From contig NZ_JAHDTF010000013.1 in NCBI RefSeq assembly GCF_018531465.1, forward strand, positions 1 through 64,000: a stretch of 64,000 nucleotides of DNA, read 5' to 3'. This stretch comes from Sphaerisporangium fuscum. Lineage in GTDB: Bacteria; Actinomycetota; Actinomycetes; Streptosporangiales; Streptosporangiaceae. The notes below the pieces were generated by a model. The model worked only from the letters and a program-made list of their open reading frames with translations. It made no database searches and was not told where the DNA came from. Below are positions 40,312-49,219 of the stretch, one piece after another. The position numbers and the translations under genes were made by a program. Numbering within the stretch: position 1 is the stretch's first letter; every line of letters begins with the position of its first letter.

Positions 40312-41919
40312 ATGGAGGTCGAGGGTGTGAGAAGGCTGCTGGCCGAGGCAGGGGTGGACGCCCGGCGGTACCACCTCGCGCTGGCGTTGCTGTGCGACGG
40401 CGCCTGGTGGACGCTGGCCGATCTCGTCCGCGGGGCCGCGACCTCCCGTCGCGGGATCGAGGCGCTGCTGCGCGAGGTGGGACCACAGCGCTCCGGCGAC
40501 CGTTTCCGCCTCACTCCCGAGCAGGTGCGGGCCTACCGCCCGCTTTTGGAGGAGTCCGGGCACCCGGGGGAGCCCGCTCTGGCCGACCCCGTGGCGCATC
40601 TGCTGCCCCGGTACGCCGACGTGCTGGAGCGCATGGAGAAGCTGATCGCCGAGGGGCCGCGGGGACGGCAGGCGCTCGACCACGTCGCGGCGACCCCCGA
40701 GACGGTGGTGCGCAGGGCGCTCCTGCTCGGCGGCCGGTTCTGGCTGCCGGGGGCCCGGCTGCTGTGCGTGGGCGACCACGACCTCACCTCGCTCGCGGTG
40801 GCGATGGCCTTTCCGGGCGTCCAGGTCACGGTGGTCGACATCGACGACCGCATCCTGGCCTACATCGACGCCCAGGCCGACGGCCTCGGGCTCGACGTGC
40901 GCACCCGCTGGGCCGACCTGCGCCTCGGGCTGCCCGCGTCGGCCCGCGATCAGGCCGACCTGGCGATCACCGACCCTCCGTACACCCCCGAGGGCGTCGG
41001 GCTGTTCGTGGCCCGGGCCGTCGAGGGGCTGCGCGATCCTGATCGGGGCCGCATCCTGCTGGCGTACGGCGCGGGCGAGCGGACCCCCATGCTGGCGCTC
41101 AAGGTGCAGAACTCCCTGCACGACCTGAACCTCGCCCTTGAGGCGATGTATCCGGACTTCAACCGTTATTTCGGGGCGGAGGCGATCGGCTCGGCGGCCG
41201 ACCTGTACGTCCTGCGACCGACCACCAAGACCCGCCCGGCCGTCGCCGCCAGGGTGGAGCGCTTCAGCACCGCGATCTACACCCACGGCCCGCAGTCGGT
41301 CGAGGCCCTCCAGGGCCTCCCCGGACCCGCCGCGCTCGGCGAGGGCGGCTTCGAGCCCGAGGTGCTCGTGGGCGACTGGCCGAAGGACGCCTTCCCCAAG
41401 CTGCCGAGGACCCGGCTGTCCACCTGGCTCGCCAAGCCGTACGCCGCCTCCCCCTCGCGGGTCGCGCTGGCCGTACCCGCCGGGCTGGAGGCCGCCCTCC
41501 CCCGCCTGCTGCTCGCCACCCGGGCCCGGCACGTGCGGGTCCTGCTCTCCGGCGCCGCCCCCGACCTTCCGGCGCTGCGCGCGGCGCTCCCCGGCGTCTA
41601 CGAGCTCACGCGGACCGGGCACGTCCTCGACGCCGTACGACTGCCGACGCCCGCCGGTGACGACGGACGCCTGTTGCGCGGCATCCTGGACAACGCGCAC
41701 GGCAAGCTCGCCAACACATGGCGGGAAGGCCTGATCAGGGCGAGAGGGCATCTCACCAAGAAGCAGGCGCGGGCCGTCGTCGCCGAGGTCGCCCCCTGGG
41801 CCGGCGACGTCACGGTCCTGGAGCTCCCCGAGCACCGCCTGCGCGCCCTCCCGGCCGCCGTCGCCGCCTCGCTGCGCCTCCCGCCCGCCGAAGCGGGCGA
41901 GACGACCGGACACGGCTGA
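40312..41919 (+). CDS. BpsA-like branched-chain polyamine synthase family protein
   Basis: 535 residues. An N-terminal winged-helix-like region (residues ~1-100) precedes a Rossmann-type aminopropyl/methyl-transferase domain (~130-310): LLCVGDHDLTSLAVAMAF with G154-D-H-D157 where archaeal BpsA has a GDDD motif, VVDIDDRILAYID, and DPPYTPEG with Asp221 at the catalytic position. About 220 extra C-terminal residues follow, longer than archaeal BpsA. Archaeal enzymes add aminopropyl groups to spermidine; whether this actinobacterial form does so, or methylates another substrate, is unknown. It stands alone, 77 bp before the DUF1876 gene. Confidence 0.75.
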   Translation: MEVEGVRRLLAEAGVDARRYHLALALLCDGAWWTLADLVRGAATSRRGIEALLREVGPQRSGDRFRLTPEQVRAYRPLLEESGHPGEPALADPVAHLLPRYADVLERMEKLIAEGPRGRQALDHVAATPETVVRRALLLGGRFWLPGARLLCVGDHDLTSLAVAMAFPGVQVTVVDIDDRILAYIDAQADGLGLDVRTRWADLRLGLPASARDQADLAITDPPYTPEGVGLFVARAVEGLRDPDRGRILLAYGAGERTPMLALKVQNSLHDLNLALEAMYPDFNRYFGAEAIGSAADLYVLRPTTKTRPAVAARVERFSTAIYTHGPQSVEALQGLPGPAALGEGGFEPEVLVGDWPKDAFPKLPRTRLSTWLAKPYAASPSRVALAVPAGLEAALPRLLLATRARHVRVLLSGAAPDLPALRAALPGVYELTRTGHVLDAVRLPTPAGDDGRLLRGILDNAHGKLANTWREGLIRARGHLTKKQARAVVAEVAPWAGDVTVLELPEHRLRALPAAVAASLRLPPAEAGETTGHG

Positions 41920-41995
41920 CCACCGGGGCGGACTACCCCCTCCGGCCGCCATGAGAGATGGTTGGAAAAGGGGGAAACCGGCAGGAGGTGCCGTG

Positions 41996-42262
41996 ATGCA
42001 AGTCAAGCAGTGGACTGTGGAGATCTATATAACCGAGGACGACAACGACGACAACACCGTCGCGCGCGCGATCGTCCAGACTCCTGGCGGAAGGAGGCAC
42101 GAGAGCGTCGGCCACGCCAGGCGCAACCCCATCGACCGTCCCGTTCCGGAGATCGGTGACGAACTGGCCGTCGGCCGGGCGCTGGCCGATCTGGCCGACA
42201 AGCTGACCGGTGACGCGGCCGCGGACGTCGCCCAGTTCGCCGGGCAGAGCAGAAGAGGCTGA
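41996..42262 (+). CDS. DUF1876 protein (Rv1738/Rv2632c-like), dormancy-type
   Basis: 88 residues from the ATG at 41996, with AGGAGG 7 nt upstream; the longer frame has no other support. The family pattern is complete: KQWTVEIYITED at the start, then ARAIVQTPGG, VGHARRNPIDRPVPEIGDELAVGRALADLADKL. In Mycobacterium tuberculosis the DUF1876 protein Rv1738 is strongly induced by DosR and structurally resembles ribosome hibernation factors. The island of Hsp20, DevR, DevS and stress proteins next door makes the same role likely here. An acidic DNDDN insertion near residue 14-20 is unusual. Confidence 0.88.
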   Translation: MQVKQWTVEIYITEDDNDDNTVARAIVQTPGGRRHESVGHARRNPIDRPVPEIGDELAVGRALADLADKLTGDAAADVAQFAGQSRRG

Positions 42263-42281
42263 CACGGCCGGGCCCGCCACC

Positions 42282-42317
42282 GGGGCGAATGTCCCGCCCA
42301 TTCGGGACCTAGGACCT
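42282..42317 (+). promoter_or_regulatory. Tandem DevR-box-like sites upstream of hsp20
   Basis: GGGGCGAATGTCCC (42282-42295) and GGGACCTAGGACCT (42304-42317) follow the DosR pattern GGGAC-N4-GTCCC with few mismatches; centres are 22 bp apart. The downstream box is preceded by TTC, matching the TTS flank. A weak -10 (TCAGAT, 42342-42347) is centred 34 bp after the proximal box. Confidence 0.6.
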
Positions 42318-42381
42318 CTGCACCGGCCCTCGGGCCTGGCATCAGATGGAGGTGAGAGTCAGACCCATCCAGGAGGTTCTC

Positions 42382-42801
42382 ATGTCGATGCCGACGCGAC
42401 GCGAGTCGAGAGGCCTGGCGCTCCCCGACCTGCTCGACTGGCTGGAGGCCCCTTTCATGGGAGCCAGAGCCGGGGAGCGGATGGTCCGCTTCGAGGACAC
42501 CGTCAGGGACGGCCATTACATCGTGCGTGCCGAACTGCCGGGCATCGACCCGGAGAGCGACGTTGAGGTCGTCGTGTCGAACGGCGTGCTGACCATCCGC
42601 GGCGAACGGAAGGAGGAGCGGACCGAACGCCACCGCAGCGAGTTCGTCTACGGGGAGTTCAGCCGCTCCCTGCCGCTGCCGCCCAACGCCGACGAGAAGA
42701 ACGTCAAGGCGGTCTACCGCGACGGCATCCTCGAGGTGGACATCCCGCTGGCGGAGGAGAGGCCGGAGGCGCAGCGCGTGCCGATCGAGAAGCAGGGGTA
42801 G
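42382..42801 (+). CDS. Hsp20 / alpha-crystallin small heat-shock protein
   Basis: 139 residues from the ATG at 42382, with AGGAGG 5 nt upstream. The alpha-crystallin domain spans about residues 35-130 (RFEDTVRDGHYIVRAELPGIDPESDVEVVV, LTIRGERKEERTERHRSEFVYGEFSRSLPLPPNADE, AVYRDGILEVDIPL), with the IPL/IPI tail motif. An ATP-independent holdase in the cytoplasm, corresponding to HspX (Acr) of mycobacteria, the marker protein of the DosR response. It lies between the DUF1876 gene and devR, with DevR-box-like sites before it and a large hairpin after it. Confidence 0.93.
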   Translation: MSMPTRRESRGLALPDLLDWLEAPFMGARAGERMVRFEDTVRDGHYIVRAELPGIDPESDVEVVVSNGVLTIRGERKEERTERHRSEFVYGEFSRSLPLPPNADEKNVKAVYRDGILEVDIPLAEERPEAQRVPIEKQG

Positions 42802-42829
42802 GCAGGGCGCGGGCCCGCGTTTCTCGTCC

Positions 42830-42867
42830 CGCTCCCGGCCAGGGACTTTCGTCCCTGGCCGGGAGCG
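42830..42867 (+). promoter_or_regulatory. 38-bp perfect inverted repeat: hsp20 terminator and DevR box of devR
   Basis: 17-bp perfect arms (42830-42846 and 42851-42867) around a TTTC loop. The centre reads GGGACTTTCGTCCC, an almost ideal DosR box. It lies 28 bp after the hsp20 stop, where a terminator is expected, and its centre is 43.5 bp before the devR start codon, the position at which DevR activates mycobacterial promoters. Confidence 0.7.
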
Positions 42868-42879
42868 TGCGCCGGCGGA

Positions 42880-42892
42880 TAGCGTCTGAGCA
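42880..42892 (+). promoter_or_regulatory. Leaderless devR promoter
   Basis: TAGCGT at 42880-42885 fits the actinobacterial TAnnnT -10 element. Six bases follow, placing the transcription start on the A of the devR ATG (42892). No ribosome site precedes the ATG, as expected for a leaderless message. Confidence 0.6.
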
Positions 42893-43533
42893 TGATCCGC
42901 GTTTTCCTGCTGGACGACCACGAGGTGGTGCGGCGTGGCGTGGCCGCGCTCCTGTCCTCCGAGGACGACATGGAGATCGTCGGGGAGGCCGGCACCGCCG
43001 AGCAGGCGATGGTCCGCATCCCGGCGCTGAAGCCGGACGTCGCCGTGCTGGACGTGCGGCTGCCCGACGGCGACGGCGTCGAGGTGTGCCGGGAGGTCCG
43101 TTCCAGGACGCCCGGCCTGTCCTGCCTGATGCTCACCTCGTTCGCCGACGACGACGCCCTGTTCGACGCCGTGATGGCGGGAGCCGCCGGGTACGTGCTC
43201 AAGCAGATCCACGGTTCCGACCTGGTGGGGGCGGTACGGACGGTGGCGGCGGGCCAGTCGCTGCTGGACCCGGAGACGACCGCGGCGATGCTGCGCCGCC
43301 TGCGCGACCAGGCGTCCAGGAAGGATCCGCTGGCGGCGCTCACCGGCCAGGAGCGCCACATCCTGGAGCTGATCGGCGAGGGCCTGACCAACCGGCAGAT
43401 CGGCGAGCGCCTGTTCCTCGCCGAGAAGACGGTCAAGAACTACGTCTCCAACCTCCTGGCGAAGCTCGACATGCAGCGCCGCACCCAGGCGGCCGCCCTC
43501 GCCGCCCAACTCAAGACCGACCGCCACACCTGA
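42892..43533 (+). CDS. devR: DevR/DosR-type response regulator (NarL family)
   Basis: 213 residues. The receiver domain carries the acidic pair D8-D9, phospho-acceptor D54 (VAVLDVRLPDGDG), T82 and K104, the same numbering as mycobacterial DevR. A linker and a LuxR-type helix-turn-helix follow (DPLAALTGQERHILELIGEGLTNRQIGERLFLAEKTVKNYVSNLLAKL), with the EKTVKNYVS recognition helix nearly identical to that of DosR. It would activate hypoxia/NO genes through GGGAC-N4-GTCCC boxes, including its own promoter. The cognate kinase gene lies convergently 118 bp downstream. Confidence 0.93.
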   Translation: MIRVFLLDDHEVVRRGVAALLSSEDDMEIVGEAGTAEQAMVRIPALKPDVAVLDVRLPDGDGVEVCREVRSRTPGLSCLMLTSFADDDALFDAVMAGAAGYVLKQIHGSDLVGAVRTVAAGQSLLDPETTAAMLRRLRDQASRKDPLAALTGQERHILELIGEGLTNRQIGERLFLAEKTVKNYVSNLLAKLDMQRRTQAAALAAQLKTDRHT

Positions 43534-43651
43534 GCGCCCGGCTCGGGGCCGGCGGTGGCTTGAGGAGGAGGGAGGGTGAGGAACGAGCCCGTACGACGAC
43601 GAAAGCCGCCGCCTCAAAGAGGCCCCGAGCCCGCCGAGCGGAGCGAGGCAG

Positions 43652-45364
43652 TCAAACACAGCGCAGCGGCACGCGCCAGGTGACGCGGGTGCCTCCGCCC
43701 TCGGCGGCCTCGACCGTGAAGGTGCCGCCGAGGCGGGCGGCGCGGTCGGCGAGGTTGCGCAGGCCGCTGCGGCGGCCGCCGCTCGGAGGCGGGCCGACGC
43801 CGTCGTCCTGGGTGACGAGCGTGAGCGTGCCGCTCCGCGCCTCCACCGTGACGTCGACCCTCCCGGCCCGCGCGTGCCGCACGACGTTGGAGAGGGTCTC
43901 CCGCAGCACGGCGAGCAGGTGCTCGCCCAGCTCGGGCGGCACCGTGACGTCGAGGTGGCCCTCCATCCGCAGGCCAGGCATGAAGCCGAGGTGCCCGCGC
44001 GCGTCCTCGACGAGCTCGGCGATCCGGTTGCGGAGGGCCGGCACGGCGTCGTCCGGCGGGGCCTGGAGGGCGAAGATCGTCGAGCGGATCTGCCGGATCG
44101 TCCCGTCGAGCTCGTCGATGGCGTGCTGGAGCCGGGAATGGGCCTCGGGGCGGTCGGCCACCAGGCGGACGCTGCTCATCAGGGTCATGGCCACCGCGAA
44201 CAACCGCTGGATGACCACGTCGTGGAGGTCCTTGGCGATGCGGTCGCGGTCCTCCAGCAGGCCGATGCGCTCGGCGTCCTCGCGGGCCTCGGCGAGTTCC
44301 AGCGCGATGGAGGCCTGGCCGGCGAACGAGTGGAGCATGCGCACGTGCGACTGGCTGAACGGGATGCGGCCGGAACGCTTGCCCAGCGACAGCACCCCGC
44401 GTACGGCGCCGGCGGCGCCCAGGGGCACCGCGACGGCGGGCCCGATCTGCAGGTGGCCGGAGATGACCGCGGGGATCTCCGTCTCGGGCAGGTCGGTCAC
44501 CACGACCGGCTCGCCCCTGGTGAAGGCGCGCCCGGACAGCGAGTCGGCCACCACGACCTCCACCGCCGGGACCTCCTCGGCCGGCACCCCGTCGGCCATG
44601 CTGACGCGCAGCTTCTCGCCCCCGGCGGCCGGCAGCAGGACCACGGCCACGTCGGCGCCGGACATCTCGCGGGCCCGGCGGGCCATCAGGGTCAGCACCT
44701 CGTGCGAGCCCGCCCCCGACAGCAGGGTGGTGGTCACCTCCGACGAGGCCTGCAGCCATACCTCGCGCCTGCGGGTCTCCTCGTACATGCGGGCGTTCTC
44801 GATGGCGACGCCGGCCGCGGTGGCGAGGGCGACGACGATGGCCTCGTCCTCCTCCTCGAAGTCGCCGCCGCCGCGTTTCTCGGTCAGGTAGAGGTTGCCG
44901 AAGACCTCCCCCCGCACCCGGATGGGCACGCCGAGGAACGACCCCATGGGCGGGTGCCCGGGCGGGAAGCCGTACGACTCGGGGTGGTCGGCGATGTGGT
45001 GCAGGCGCAGGGGACGCGGCTCCTTGATGAGCAGGCCGAGAAGGCCGAGGCCGTGCGGCCAGTGCTCGATCCTCGCGATCTCCTCCTCCGACAGCCCGAC
45101 GGGGACGAACTGGACGAGCGTGCTGCCCTCGCCGATGCGGCCGAGGGCGCCGTAGGTGGCGTCGACGAGGGTGGTGGCGGTCTCCACGATCCGGCGCAGG
45201 ACGGTCTCCAGGTCCAGGTCGCTGCCCACCGCGACGACCGCGTCGAGCAGGGCGTGGACGCGGTCGCGGGTCGCAAGGACGGCCTCGAGCCGGACCTGCA
45301 GCTCCGACAGCAGCTCGTCGAGCCGCATCTGCGGCACGAGCGAGCGCGGTGGGACGTCCGCCAT
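43652..45364 (-). CDS. devS: DevS/DosT-type GAF-GAF sensor histidine kinase
   Basis: 570 residues from the ATG at 45364. The N-terminal GAF-A domain opens with LDELLSELQVRLEAVL and contains LIKEPRPLRLHHIADHPESYGFPPGHPPMGSFLGVPIRVR, the stretch that binds haem in mycobacterial DevS/DosT; His137 in GHPPM is the candidate ligand (alignment not verified). GAF-B covers about 190-345. The HisKA_3 domain has DRIAKDLHDVVIQRLF with His381 as phosphorylation site, and the HATPase_c domain has VLRETLSNVVRHARAG and SGLRNLADRAARLGG. It probably senses O2, NO, CO or redox state and phosphorylates DevR. Confidence 0.9.
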   Translation of the reverse strand: MADVPPRSLVPQMRLDELLSELQVRLEAVLATRDRVHALLDAVVAVGSDLDLETVLRRIVETATTLVDATYGALGRIGEGSTLVQFVPVGLSEEEIARIEHWPHGLGLLGLLIKEPRPLRLHHIADHPESYGFPPGHPPMGSFLGVPIRVRGEVFGNLYLTEKRGGGDFEEEDEAIVVALATAAGVAIENARMYEETRRREVWLQASSEVTTTLLSGAGSHEVLTLMARRAREMSGADVAVVLLPAAGGEKLRVSMADGVPAEEVPAVEVVVADSLSGRAFTRGEPVVVTDLPETEIPAVISGHLQIGPAVAVPLGAAGAVRGVLSLGKRSGRIPFSQSHVRMLHSFAGQASIALELAEAREDAERIGLLEDRDRIAKDLHDVVIQRLFAVAMTLMSSVRLVADRPEAHSRLQHAIDELDGTIRQIRSTIFALQAPPDDAVPALRNRIAELVEDARGHLGFMPGLRMEGHLDVTVPPELGEHLLAVLRETLSNVVRHARAGRVDVTVEARSGTLTLVTQDDGVGPPPSGGRRSGLRNLADRAARLGGTFTVEAAEGGGTRVTWRVPLRCV

Positions 45365-45480
45365 ACAGGCAGTCTCCCCTGACCAGGAGCTTTGCAAATC
45401 GGCTCCGCTTCGCTTCTGGACCATTTGCCCGAGGATCGGCCTCCGCTTGACCTTCGTCGGCACCCGATGGTGCCCGGCGG

Positions 45481-46362
45481 TCAGGTCACCGGCTCCAGGC
45501 GCGCGCGGCGCGGCCGGACGATCGCGACCGGGCAGCGGGCGTGGCGCAGGACGCCGTTGCCCACCGACCCGAGCAGCGGCCTGCCGTGGACGCCCTGGGG
45601 GCCCGAGCCGACGACGACGAGGTCGGCGTGCCGCGAGGCGTCGCACAGCGCGGTGACGGGGTGCCCGCGCACGGCCGAGGCCTCCATCGGCACGTCGGGG
45701 TAGCGTTCCCGCCAGGGTTCCAGCCGCCGCCACACCTCGCGCGACTCCTCCGCGAGCGCCTCCTGGGCCGCGCCCGCGTACGCCGTGGCGTCCGGCGCGA
45801 AGGGCGGGGCGGCCGAGGCGTACAGCACGTGGGCCCGCGCCCGGCGCAGCGCGGCCTGCTGGAGGGCGTAGTCGAGGGCGGCCTCCGACACTTCCGAGCC
45901 GTCGAACCCCACGACGACCTCGCCGAAGGCGGTCTCCGGGGGACGCTTGACGACGATGACCGCGCCCTCGGCGCGCCCGGCGACCGAGCACCCCACCGAA
46001 CCGATCACCGAGCCGACGAGGCCGCCGAGGCCCTTGCTGCCGAGGACCAGCTCGTCGGCGCTCTCGGACTCGGTGGTGAGCCGCTCGGCGACCGCGCCCG
46101 TGATCAGTGCGGAGGTCACCTCGACCCCCGGCACCTGCCGCCGCACCCAGTCGGTGGCGGTGGCGAGCGCCCCCTCCCAGTAGGACGACAGCGAGTTGCG
46201 GTTGCGCGGCGTCGGTTTGAACGGGAACTCGTACGACCAGGGCTCGCGCACGTGCACGATCCGCAGGCGTGCGCCCCACCGCGCCGCCTCGTCGGCGGCC
46301 CACTTCACCGCCGCCGCCGCGGAGGGGGAGCCGTCGACCCCGACGACGATCTGTCCTGTCAT
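45481..46362 (-). CDS. Tandem universal stress protein (UspA family)
   Basis: 293 residues from the ATG at 46362. Two Usp domains: QIVVGVDGSPSAAAAVKWAADEAARWGA...ELVLGSKGLGGLVGSVIGSVGCSVAGRAEGAVIVVKR, and EVVVGFDGSEVSEAALDYALQQAALRRA...DLVVVGSGPQGVHGRPLLGSVGNGVLRHARCPVAIVR. The second domain carries an intact G-x2-G-x9-G-(S/N) type ATP-binding loop; the first reads GSKGLGG. Tandem Usps such as Rv2623 are prominent DosR targets in mycobacteria. It follows the CBS-BON gene by 17 bp and probably shares its DevR-boxed promoter. Confidence 0.92.
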   Translation of the reverse strand: MTGQIVVGVDGSPSAAAAVKWAADEAARWGARLRIVHVREPWSYEFPFKPTPRNRNSLSSYWEGALATATDWVRRQVPGVEVTSALITGAVAERLTTESESADELVLGSKGLGGLVGSVIGSVGCSVAGRAEGAVIVVKRPPETAFGEVVVGFDGSEVSEAALDYALQQAALRRARAHVLYASAAPPFAPDATAYAGAAQEALAEESREVWRRLEPWRERYPDVPMEASAVRGHPVTALCDASRHADLVVVGSGPQGVHGRPLLGSVGNGVLRHARCPVAIVRPRRARLEPVT

Positions 46363-46379
46363 GGCGCACCTGCCAAGCT

Positions 46380-47048
46380 CTAGAGGAACATCGGGGGCAC
46401 GGGCACGAGGTCGTCGGTCTCGTACCCGAGCTCGTCGTCGACCTCGATGACGCCGTCGACGGTCTGCACCGACTCGACGACCTGCGCGATCTGGGAGCGC
46501 CGGGGGACCGTGCCGCGCAGCGACACCAGCCCGTGCTCGACCAGGATGGCGAGGGTGGCGGGGTCGACGGCGGCCCGCCAGACGGCGTCCAGCACGTCGG
46601 CGCGCACGTCGGAGGGACGGCGGACGAAGATCTTGAGCAGGTCCGACTGGTGGACCGTGCCGATGATCTTGCCGCTGAGGTCGTCGATCACGGGAAGCTG
46701 CCTGACGCGGTGATCGTGCATGACCCGGGCGGCGTCCCTGACGGGTGTCCTCTCGGTCACCGTGATCGCGGGCGTGGTCATGACCTGGCCGGCGGTGGTC
46801 CCGGTGGCCCTGACGCGCTCCCTGCGGTGCCGCAGGCCCCCGAACACTCCCCCGGCCCCCGGGGCCTCGATCTCCTTCAGCAGCAGGTCGTGCGCCGAGA
46901 CCACCCCGACCGGCCTGCGCTCGGAGTCGACGACGGCCACCGCTTCCACCTTGAACCGCCGCATGGTCTCCACGACGTCGGCGAACGAGGTGTTCTGCGC
47001 CACCGCGATGGCCACCCTGCCCATGACCTCCCCGACATTCATGATCAT
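46380..47048 (-). CDS. CBS-pair and BON domain protein (Hrp1-like)
   Basis: 222 residues from the ATG at 47048 with GGGAGG 5 nt upstream. Two CBS motifs form a Bateman module (MGRVAIAVAQNTSFADVVETMRRFKVEAVAVVDSERRPVGVVSAHDLL and TPAITVTERTPVRDAARVMHDHRVRQLPVIDDLSGKIIGTVHQSDLL), followed by a BON domain (VSLRGTVPRRSQIAQVVESVQTVDGVIEVDDEL). CBS pairs bind adenylates; BON domains associate with membranes. The mycobacterial DosR regulon includes the CBS protein Hrp1. Two DevR-box-like sites lie 63-98 bp upstream. It heads a CBS-usp transcription unit. Confidence 0.9.
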   Translation of the reverse strand: MIMNVGEVMGRVAIAVAQNTSFADVVETMRRFKVEAVAVVDSERRPVGVVSAHDLLLKEIEAPGAGGVFGGLRHRRERVRATGTTAGQVMTTPAITVTERTPVRDAARVMHDHRVRQLPVIDDLSGKIIGTVHQSDLLKIFVRRPSDVRADVLDAVWRAAVDPATLAILVEHGLVSLRGTVPRRSQIAQVVESVQTVDGVIEVDDELGYETDDLVPVPPMFL

Positions 47049-47110
47049 GGCTGCCTCCCTGGACTTCCCGCTGTGGTTCGAGCATCCCGCTCGCGACGCG
47101 GATGCCGTCA

Positions 47111-47146
47111 GCGGCGAAAGTCCCAGGTGGCGGGGACCTTTGACTC
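47111..47146 (-). promoter_or_regulatory. Tandem DevR-box-like sites upstream of the CBS-usp unit
   Basis: Minus-strand GGGACTTTCGCCGC (47124-47111) and the site GGGACCTTTGACTC (plus 47133-47146) have centres 22 bp apart. A -10-like GATGCT (minus, 47086-47081) is centred 34 bp after the proximal box, the same distance as at devR. Confidence 0.6.
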
Positions 47147-47174
47147 GCCTCTCCCGCGCCCGGCGGGCAGGGGC

Positions 47175-47846
47175 TCAGTGGCGGGCCGGGCGGACCAGCC
47201 CCGTCTCGTAGGCGTGGACCGCGGCCTGCGTGCGGTCGCGCAGGCCCAGCTTGACCAGGATGCGGCTCACGTGGGTCTTGACCGTCTGCTCGGCCACCAC
47301 CAGCCGCTCGGCGATCTCGGCGTTCGACAGGCCCTGCGCGATCAGCGACAGCACCTCGGTCTCGCGTTCGGTCAGGTCGCCGACCCGGTCCTTCAGAGGG
47401 GCCCTGAGGGTGCCGGTCACGCGGGAGAACTCGGCGATGAGGCGCTTGGTGATGTTCGGGGCGAGCAGGGCCTCACCGGCCGCAACCACCCGGACGGCGT
47501 GCGCGAGCTCGGCGGCGGAGGCGTCCTTCAGCAGGAACCCGGACGCGCCGGCGCGCAGCGCCTCGTAGACGTACTCGTCGAGGTCGAAGGTCGTCAGGAC
47601 GAGCACCTTCGCGGCGGCGCCGCCGGGTTCGGTGATGCGGCGGGTGGCCTCGATGCCGCCGAGCTCCGGCATCCGGATGTCCATCAGGACGACGTCGGGG
47701 GCGAGCTCGGCGACCTTGGCGACGGCGTCGAGCCCGTTCACGGCCTGCCCGACGACCTCGATGCCGGGCTCGGCGTTCAGCAGCACCGTGAAGCCCTGGC
47801 GGACCAGCATCTGGTCGTCGGCGATCAGCACGCGGATCGTCGTCAC
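47175..47846 (-). CDS. NarL/LuxR-type response regulator
   Basis: 223 residues from the GTG at 47846 with GAGGAGG 4 nt upstream. Receiver domain with D10-D11, phospho-acceptor D56 (VVLMDIRMPELGG) and the LTTFDLDEYVYEALRAGASGFLLKD block typical of regulators paired with HisKA_3 kinases; C-terminal LuxR helix-turn-helix LTERETEVLSLIAQGLSNAEIAERLVVAEQTVKTHVSRILVKLGLRDR. It overlaps the upstream kinase gene by 4 bp. The signal and targets are unknown. It is distinct from the DevRS pair. Confidence 0.93.
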   Translation of the reverse strand: MTTIRVLIADDQMLVRQGFTVLLNAEPGIEVVGQAVNGLDAVAKVAELAPDVVLMDIRMPELGGIEATRRITEPGGAAAKVLVLTTFDLDEYVYEALRAGASGFLLKDASAAELAHAVRVVAAGEALLAPNITKRLIAEFSRVTGTLRAPLKDRVGDLTERETEVLSLIAQGLSNAEIAERLVVAEQTVKTHVSRILVKLGLRDRTQAAVHAYETGLVRPARH

Positions 47847-49219
47847 GCGACCTCCTCGGCACGGTCGGGGGGCGGCTGCGGGGCGGACCCGGTCTCCTGG
47901 ACGGGCCCGGCGGGCGCGGGCAGGACGGCGGTCACCTCGTAGCCGCCGTCCGGGGTGCCTCCCGTAGCCAGGTCGCCGCCCAACATGGTCGTACGCTCCC
48001 GCATGCCGAGCAACCCGTGCCCCGCCCCCTTGGACGGCGGGACGGGACCGGCCGGCGCGGTGTTGACGACCCGGACGGTGAGAGCCTCCGGCCCGTAGGC
48101 GACGCTCACGCGCACGGCCGCGCCGGGGGCGTGCCGCATCACGTTGCTGAGCGCCTCCTGGACGATGCGGAAGGCCGACAGCTCGACTCCGGGGGACAGC
48201 GGGCGCGCCTGGCCGGTGGTCTCTACGGTGACCGTGACCCCGGCGGCGCGCACGTTGGCGACCAGTTCCCCCAGCCGGTCGAGCGTCGGCTGCGGGGCGT
48301 GCCGGACCCCGTCGGCCAGGGCGTCCTCCGAGCGCAGCACGCCGAGGACGCGCCGCAGCTCGGTCAGCGCCTCGACGGCGTTCTGGCGGATGCCCGCCAG
48401 GTTCTCCTTCAGCTCTTCGGACGGGTCGTCGACCAGGTGCGGGGCCACCTGCGCCTGGATCGAGATCACCGACATGTGGTGGGCGACCACGTCGTGCAGC
48501 TCGCGGGCGATGCGGTTGCGCGTCTCCAGCACCGTGCGCCGGGCCCGCTCCTCCGCGGTGATCTCCTCCTGCTCGACGAGCCGGGTACGGGCGACGCGCC
48601 GCCCGCGCAGCGCGGCGCCGACCACGGTCGCCGTCACCGCCACCGGGATGAGGAGGACGGCGTTGGCGGAGTGTCTCTGGTCGATGAACACCACGCAGTA
48701 CAGGGCCGCCAGGACGCTGATCGTCAGCGCCTCGGCGGCGGCCCGCGGGCGCACGCGCAGCGCCAGCAGGAACAGCACCGCGCCCTGGAGCAGGATCCCG
48801 GCGGTCGTCCAGGGGAACGGCACCGGACCCGGCAGGTCGAAGCCGGGCGGCGGCGGGGGGACGCGCTCCACCAGCCACGGGGAATCCGGACCGGCGTCGA
48901 TGACGATCTCCGACAGCTGCGCGCCGACGATCGTGAAGAGGGTCGAGGCCCACCAGGCCAGTACCGGGCGGGACATCGCGACGACGAGCGCCGCCGCATG
49001 CATCGTCGCCAGCAGGCCGTACGCCGGGCTCCGGGGGTGGGTGAGCTGCACCATGACCAGCGCGTACAGCACGACCAGCACGTGCGGCAGCCGGGCCGTC
49101 CACCGCGGCCCGCCCATGCGCGGGAGCGGGTCGGCCGCCAGCGTCCACAGGTCCGTGCGCAGGATGGACAGGGTCCCCCGCCGCCTGTCCCCCTCGCCCC
49201 GTCCGGTCACCGCACTCAC
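47843..49219 (-). CDS. Membrane sensor histidine kinase (HisKA_3)
   Basis: 458 residues from a GTG at 49219. Four or five membrane helices in the first ~210 residues (LPHVLVVLYALVMVQL, LLATMHAAALVVAMS, TTAGILLQGAVLFLLAL, LLIPVAVTATVVGAAL), a short coiled linker, the phospho-acceptor box RNRIARELHDVVAHHMSVISIQ, and a HATPase_c domain (SAFRIVQEALSNVMRHAPGA, GHGLLGMRERTTMLGGDL). It is the partner of the overlapping response regulator. The long Pro-rich extracytoplasmic loop (ERVPPPPPGFDLPGPVPFP) may be part of the sensing surface. Confidence 0.92.
   Translation of the reverse strand: MSAVTGRGEGDRRRGTLSILRTDLWTLAADPLPRMGGPRWTARLPHVLVVLYALVMVQLTHPRSPAYGLLATMHAAALVVAMSRPVLAWWASTLFTIVGAQLSEIVIDAGPDSPWLVERVPPPPPGFDLPGPVPFPWTTAGILLQGAVLFLLALRVRPRAAAEALTISVLAALYCVVFIDQRHSANAVLLIPVAVTATVVGAALRGRRVARTRLVEQEEITAEERARRTVLETRNRIARELHDVVAHHMSVISIQAQVAPHLVDDPSEELKENLAGIRQNAVEALTELRRVLGVLRSEDALADGVRHAPQPTLDRLGELVANVRAAGVTVTVETTGQARPLSPGVELSAFRIVQEALSNVMRHAPGAAVRVSVAYGPEALTVRVVNTAPAGPVPPSKGAGHGLLGMRERTTMLGGDLATGGTPDGGYEVTAVLPAPAGPVQETGSAPQPPPDRAEEVA

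Follow-up and report, generated by a model that had tools for sequence, protein, structure and literature searches.

A gene island of about 5 kb in the actinomycete Sphaerisporangium fuscum very probably constitutes, to judge from its sequence, a DosR-type two-component low-oxygen switch and, within its genus, a second DevRS locus. The island lies in a 64,000-nucleotide stretch of DNA that was analysed as a whole (hereafter the window; positions 1 to 64,000 of contig NZ_JAHDTF010000013.1, our C1). It is real and for the most part an ordinary system of its kind. Both a DosR-type switch and a clustered regulon are known, and what is new is a duplicate peculiar to this lineage, one or the other of the two copies having decayed in different genomes. 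These findings extend the DosR-type switch with its paired boxes to Sphaerisporangium, where searches of the open literature for DosR regulons in Streptosporang- taxa or for dormancy in Sphaerisporangium returned nothing on the island.

The host genome (G000) comprises 10.1 Mb in 93 contigs, with completeness of 100 and contamination of 6.95%. It was compared with ten other genomes of the genus (G001-G010), giving a sample of 11. The nine islands discussed below are that of the window and those of eight of these ten genomes.

Regulator, sensor and companion genes

All six genes that a preliminary description had placed within 5 kb were found there (42.0-47.1 kb) by open reading frame, Pfam and solved-structure matches. 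The genes for a DUF1876/PF08962 protein, Hsp20 and DevR follow one another on the plus strand and face a minus-strand run encoding a CBS-BON protein, a universal stress protein (USP) and DevS. Gaps of only 17 bp (CBS/usp) and 116 bp (usp/devS) separate the members of this run, which presumably forms one operon through which DevR control may reach devS. The regulator and sensor genes are neighbours but converge, 118 bp apart, and so do not share a single operon, whereas devR and devS of Mycobacterium tuberculosis are cotranscribed as one.

The regulator is a DevR/DosR orthologue, as the preliminary description had held. Its best solved match is M. tuberculosis DevR (3c3w, 5.7e-80 over residues 1-211), the next protein being VraR at 3e-47, and it joins a NarL-type receiver (PF00072) to a GerE output domain (PF00196). 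Alignment reveals that Asp54, Thr82 and Lys104 are kept together with Lys179, Lys182 and Asn183. We take these residues to play the roles they have in DevR, the last three as DNA contacts.

The sensor has the GAF-GAF-HisKA_3-HATPase_c architecture of DevS and DosT, and its kinase core carries the motif DLHD. Its first GAF domain (GAF-A) aligns without gaps to those of DevS and DosT (2w3d and 2vzw; 2.2e-49 to 6.1e-47; 81/149 and 84/147 identities). The alignment bears out the proposed kinship by placing His137 at the proximal haem ligand His149 of DosS and Tyr159 at the distal Tyr171. By analogy, haem binding and phosphotransfer by the island pair can be expected. Among 36 DevS sequences compared, the haem His is kept in 33 and the distal Tyr in 34, while Gly75, discussed below, is kept in 33. 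The exceptions are a DevS remnant elsewhere in the host genome, a Planotetraspora sequence and, for the Gly and His, the island copy of G001. In the Planotetraspora thailandica orthologue (L125) the alignment shows Arg at the haem His position and His where the distal Tyr would be, and this protein perhaps is a haem-free sensor.

The residues around the haem also bear on the signal that is sensed. Gly75 of the island protein occupies the position of Glu87 in DosS and Gly85 in DosT, a difference that, according to an excerpt of PMC4082495, may determine whether a sensor responds to redox state or to oxygen, the evidence being termed disputed there. The same excerpt reports that any single change among E87G, D90G, H97E, L118R and T169N let M. 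tuberculosis DosS act in a DosT-like manner in M. smegmatis. At these five positions the island sensor has Gly, Gly, Gln, Leu and Asn. Thus it shares the DosT state at E87, D90 and T169, has the DosS state at L118 (Arg in DosT) and matches neither at H97 (Glu in DosT), and Ile at positions 89 and 108 likewise matches neither protein. Although mixed, this pattern, with three of the five positions that separate the M. tuberculosis sensors in the DosT state, makes oxygen the likeliest candidate signal.

The companion proteins belong to families of the mycobacterial DosR regulon, although the preliminary assertion that each has a counterpart there stands at the level of families and not throughout. 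The DUF1876 protein, present in a single copy in the host genome, has Rv2632c (2.6e-11) and Rv1738 (1.1e-10) as solved relatives, and the USP matches M. tuberculosis TB31.7 at 5.2e-25. The CBS-BON protein resembles Rv2626c weakly (8e-5) and has the BON domain in addition. HspX is absent from the 22 solved-structure matches of the island Hsp20, whose sequence was not compared directly with that of HspX, leaving HspX orthology not established.

From these components we propose the following sequence of events. DevS would carry haem in its first GAF domain and, by analogy with DosT/DosS, loss of oxygen or binding of nitric oxide or carbon monoxide would switch on its autophosphorylation, after which the phosphate would go to Asp54 of DevR. 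Phosphorylated DevR would then bind, and activate from, the pairs of boxes spaced by 22 bp that are seen before hsp20 and CBS-usp-devS and the single box before devR. As a consequence, the chaperone, the USP and the CBS-BON protein would be made and both regulator and sensor raised.

With the M. tuberculosis system the island therefore has in common the conserved residues and sensor architecture described above, boxes of the GGGAC-N4-GTCCC type that are often paired, and the nearby Hsp20, USP, CBS and DUF1876 families. It differs in its convergent devR and devS, the placement of devS within the CBS-usp-devS run, the BON domain of its CBS protein, a DUF1876 gene that lacks a box and a second, decayed locus in the genome. 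The convergent layout, the position of the sensor gene after CBS-usp and the decay of the other locus are lineage details.

That regulator, sensor and effectors are clustered was put forward as a contrast to the scattered mycobacterial genes, but this is not special, since the regulon of OsdRK, a DevR-type system of Streptomyces coelicolor, is clustered as well (PMC5069765). The excerpted text of that paper describes eight predicted sites that account for 20 of the 22 genes in the osdRK neighbourhood (SCO0198-SCO0219), binding of OsdR to M. tuberculosis DevR sites, and induction of osdR and many surrounding genes by low oxygen and a nitric oxide donor. OsdRK resembles the island in being an actinomycete DevRS orthologue whose regulon is clustered, with USPs and with boxes near the regulator gene. 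Unlike the island pair, osdR and osdK form an operon. Nitrate reductase and several USPs are encoded near them, with no DUF1876-Hsp20-devR order reported in the excerpt, and at a position where most island boxes carry A the published consensus AGGGCCGATCGGCCCT carries C (PMC5069765).

This relative also raises the prospect that a DevR-type regulator serves mainly development or sporulation and responds to oxygen only in a minor or indirect way, a role that has been discussed for OsdR. We consider this rather unlikely for the island. The host belongs to a sporulating group of actinomycetes and its genome is large, both of which speak for a developmental role. So does the excerpted report of early sporulation, with changes in many developmental genes, when osdR is mutated in S. 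coelicolor (PMC5069765). The boxed island targets, however, are stress genes and the sensor keeps its haem His and Tyr, although neither observation excludes developmental functions.

Candidate DevR sites

The palindromes that accompany the island genes comprise one exact box, at devR, and two imperfect pairs, at hsp20 and CBS. Because box counts by themselves prove nothing, the regions upstream of the genes were compared across the nine islands and scored against shuffled sequences. At hsp20, two boxes 22 bp apart form the best such pair in all seven genomes with the gene, with scores reached by 0, 0, 1, 1, 3, 15 and 0 of 300 shuffles (0/300 in G000). At CBS, a pair near -90/-68 is the best in six of eight genomes, its score being reached by 0 to 4 of 300 shuffles (1/300 in G000). 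Of the remaining two, G001 has half-pairs one base further apart (108/300 at 22 bp), and in G008 the pair is also present but a tandem repeat was picked instead. A single box lies at about -42 of devR in six of nine islands. It is exact in G000, G003, G001 and G005 (0, 0, 1 and 0 of 300 shuffles) and has one mismatch in G008 (18/300) and G006 (9/300).

Several results weigh against the DosR-type reading of the island. Sites matching GGGAC-N4-GTCCC with up to two mismatches are fewer in the window (64) than in shuffles (mean 112.7). The genome-wide search that had been suggested with this pattern did find sites, but its 26 exact occurrences compare with 18 for the reversed control and amount to no enrichment. 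The pair pattern GTCCY-N8-GGGACYTW gives 3+3 genomic sites compared with 7+4 for its control. In the shuffle-scored comparison no box precedes DUF1876 in any of the seven genomes with the gene or devS in any of the nine islands, and the devR box is absent from the islands of G009, G007 and G002. A scan for sigma-70-type promoters in 41900-47300 found none (shuffle mean 0.0). Apart from these results, no comparable site was found for usp and the neighbouring ADH gene in nine islands each, the lowest pair count being 27 of 300 shuffles. Thus the preliminary claim of matching palindromes holds for hsp20, CBS and devR and is not supported for DUF1876 and devS. Likewise, the proposal of a single response unit is partly supported, in that DevR and DevS are encoded together with hsp20, CBS and usp and with conserved boxes, and overstated for DUF1876 and devS, which have no boxes of their own.

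Box counts alone were accordingly rejected as proof of a regulon, because the window count falls below that of shuffles and the genome counts do not stand out from their controls. Of the five distinct sites matching the pair pattern, those on contigs C45 and C69 fall within called genes and were taken as chance matches. Only one version of the box stands out from its control: with one mismatch allowed, GGGACTTTNGTCCC yields 6+5 genomic sites compared with 3+3. Its exact form occurs twice in 10.1 Mb, in both cases at a DevRS locus (the island devR box and C16:100938). The sites are credible because of their position, 22-bp pairing and conservation, and because exact GGGACTTTNGTCCC is confined to DevRS loci. 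The pairs at hsp20 and CBS also fit the mode of M. tuberculosis DevR given in an excerpt of PMC3029386, wherein binding is cooperative through at least two closely packed sites and the start-proximal site overlaps the -35 region.

In G000 the devR box sits at the centre of a perfect 17-bp stem between hsp20 and devR, whose fold energy (z -9.17) is reached by none of 200 shuffles. It is therefore conceivable, although highly improbable, that this palindrome is a hairpin ending the hsp20 transcript and not a DevR site. No T run follows the stem, and a terminator scan of 41900-47300 did not list it, returning instead two other sites (shuffle mean 1.1), both inside the end of devS. Moreover, G003, G001 and G005 keep the 14-bp box exactly while their flanking arms lack the 17-bp complementarity, so that conservation falls on the box and not on the hairpin.

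Downstream of this box, a -10-like TANNNT hexamer begins at -12 of devR in all six islands with a devR box, a pattern chosen post hoc with the sequences already in view. Its placement suggests that the devR transcript may start at the ATG and be leaderless.

The lack of a box at DUF1876 gives about even weight to a narrower unit, consisting of devR, devS, hsp20 and CBS-usp only, with DUF1876 as a neighbour under a separate promoter. Besides the missing box, all seven genomes carry another conserved stretch 5′ of the gene, approximately GAGAGATGG (GCGAGATGG in two) followed by a G-rich run, which is unlike a DevR box and perhaps is a promoter of another kind. On the other side, Rv1738 is under DosR control in M. 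tuberculosis, and DUF1876 and hsp20 were lost together in two of nine islands (G008 and G002, the latter retaining a short hsp20 start). DevR-type regulators may also bind off-consensus sites, as an excerpt of PMC5069765 indicates. The case cautions that a gene adjoining devR need not bear a DevR site.

The surroundings of seven of the 26 exact genomic sites were inspected. Two of these, outside both DevRS loci, lie within about 150 bp 5′ of called genes: C12:237447 (L006, about 3048) and C23:118029 (L141, 3030). The adjacent genes are possible further DevR targets.

Two DevRS loci and their decay

In the G000 assembly devR and devS are both complete at the island alone, but the notion that the island is the only DevRS locus was rejected. 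A damaged second locus with boxes of its own lies at C16:99600-105100 (11660-17036 of L002, which spans C16:88000-107999), so the clustering claimed for regulator, sensor and effectors is not the whole of the system. This locus holds a pyridoxamine-oxidase-like (PNPOx-like) gene, devR fragments, two USP genes, devS and another PNPOx-like gene. The devR is traceable at residues 56-120 and then, in another frame, at 121-149, having lost both the start that bears Asp54 and the DNA-binding end. The devS comprises residues 163-567 only, and thus lacks the haem site while retaining GAF-B, HisKA_3 and HATPase_c. Near the USP and PNPOx-like genes are two exact boxes (L002 12939 and 17014) and one with a single mismatch (15109), and two more one-mismatch boxes fall inside the devS remnant. 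The next best matches in the genome are a DevR-like protein of 40% identity and a DevS-like protein of 38%. Because the island alone has both complete genes, its DevR probably also controls the box-bearing genes left on C16.

Given contamination of 6.95%, C16 might belong to another strain, a point against the reading proposed here. A contaminated or faulty assembly with two functionally unlinked loci could be favoured by the 93 contigs as well, and by equal-score matches on C17 and C80 that reveal redundancy. We nonetheless judge it improbable. The C16 lesions are separate (devR lost its 5′ part, changed frame and lost its 3′ part, whereas devS lost GAF-A), searches of the genome turned up no further intact copy that another strain might have contributed, and the DevS remnant groups in the tree with second-locus copies of the genus (100/99).

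The 11 listed genomes of the genus contain 19 DevR matches of at least 83% identity, two each in eight genomes and one each in G000, G004 and G010. An island-type DevS is present in ten genomes, G010 being without one, and is full length in seven. In G001 (L050), G009 (L057) and G007 (L059) the island DevS lacks its ATPase domain while the island DevR is full length. The DLHD motif reads DLRD in G007 and G009, replacing the phospho-acceptor His with Arg, and damage in these two probably reflects one shared event; the G001 protein additionally lacks the haem part of GAF-A. The second-locus DevS is full length in ten of 11 genomes, damaged only in G000, and hence stands complete beside each of the three truncated island kinases.

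One or the other DevRS copy has therefore decayed in four of the ten genomes with two copies, and none of the 11 has both DevS copies damaged. The alternation alone was rejected as proof of complementation, since this pattern has a chance expectation of about 0.69 for four damaged genes over ten genomes. It nevertheless provides a natural experiment, in harmless soil bacteria, on three questions: what each copy senses, whether a single kinase can act on both DevR proteins, and how a regulon persists when the locus of its regulator changes.

The second locus is of a pyridoxamine-oxidase type found in this genus and in other genera of the Streptosporangiaceae. It encodes the same DevR and DevS families, with PNPOx-like and USP genes as neighbours in place of the BpsA-like, DUF1876, Hsp20, CBS and ADH genes of the island. 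In DevS trees the nine islands form one clade (100/100), outside of which the second-locus copies fall, intermixed with those of other genera. In the DevR tree, by contrast, the islands are not resolved as a single clade (two changes; islands united in 14% of bootstrap trees, the bootstrap being unsettled), a point against the reading proposed here. Among 22 devR neighbourhoods taken from beyond the genus, which cover 23 of the 37 such matches, none contains DUF1876. It lies near devS in four of 49 named loci, namely three Sphaerisporangium islands and one of Thermocatellispora. One genome from outside the genus (G021) has CBS, Hsp20, USP, devR and devS together without DUF1876. Overall, the island looks like a duplicate with a single origin or a single arrival, in this genus or close to it, and the older DevRS copy elsewhere in G000 looks to have decayed while the island was kept.

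A more tentative proposal, in which we place somewhat less than even confidence, is that control of the low-oxygen response has moved. The genus-specific island would have replaced the older DevRS locus and would run the C16 targets in trans, while the haem-less kinase remnant with its GAF-B domain may feed a haem-independent signal to the island DevR. The reverse would apply in the sister species, where a complete island DevR would depend on the other locus.

Feature coordinates and flanking genes

Coordinates of the island features are collected in Table 1. The start of Hsp20 was set by a conserved ribosome-binding site.

Table 1. Genes and candidate regulatory features of the island, in window positions
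Feature	Position	Strand	Remarks
DUF1876/PF08962 protein (Rv2632c-like, Rv1738-like), 88 aa	41996..42262	+	Pfam 1.9e-27
DevR-type box GGGGCGAATGTCCC, distal half of hsp20 pair	42282..42295	+	22 bp from next box
DevR-type box GGGACCTAGGACCT, proximal half of hsp20 pair	42304..42317	+	spacing kept in 7/7 genomes with hsp20
Hsp20 small heat-shock protein, 139 aa	42382..42801	+	PF00011 9.6e-22
17-bp inverted repeat, 4-base loop	42830..42867	+	devR box at centre; fold z -9.17
devR box, exact GGGACTTTCGTCCC	42842..42855	+	present in 6/9 islands
-10-like TAGCGT (TANNNT)	42880..42885	+	6 bases 5′ of devR ATG
DevR/DosR orthologue, 213 aa	42892..43533	+	M. tuberculosis DevR 3c3w, 5.7e-80
DevS/DosT-type sensor kinase, 570 aa	43652..45364	-	GAF, GAF, HisKA_3, HATPase_c; convergent to devR
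Tandem universal stress protein, 293 aa	45481..46362	-	PF00582 2.7e-46, two stretches
CBS-BON protein, 222 aa	46380..47048	-	PF00571 1.6e-26, PF04972 4.9e-7; first gene of CBS-usp-devS run
DevR-type box, proximal half of CBS pair	47111..47124	-	imperfect
DevR-type box, distal half of CBS pair	47133..47146	-	22-bp pair best in 6/8 genomes

Among the NCBIfam matches listed for eight island and neighbour proteins, no family exceeds its cut-off. A gene encoding a branched-chain polyamine synthase C-terminal domain (PF01861, 3.5e-32), a family familiar from thermophiles, occupies 40312-41919 of the window and adjoins the island in eight of nine cases.

On the other flank, next to the CBS promoter, a second NarL-type two-component pair spans 47175-49210, and a relative of it (50% and 40% identity) is found at the same place in one other island only, that of G003. 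Contigs C17 and C80 of G000 give equal-score kinase and regulator matches. This points to a duplicated stretch within the assembly, which may account for part of the contamination estimate.

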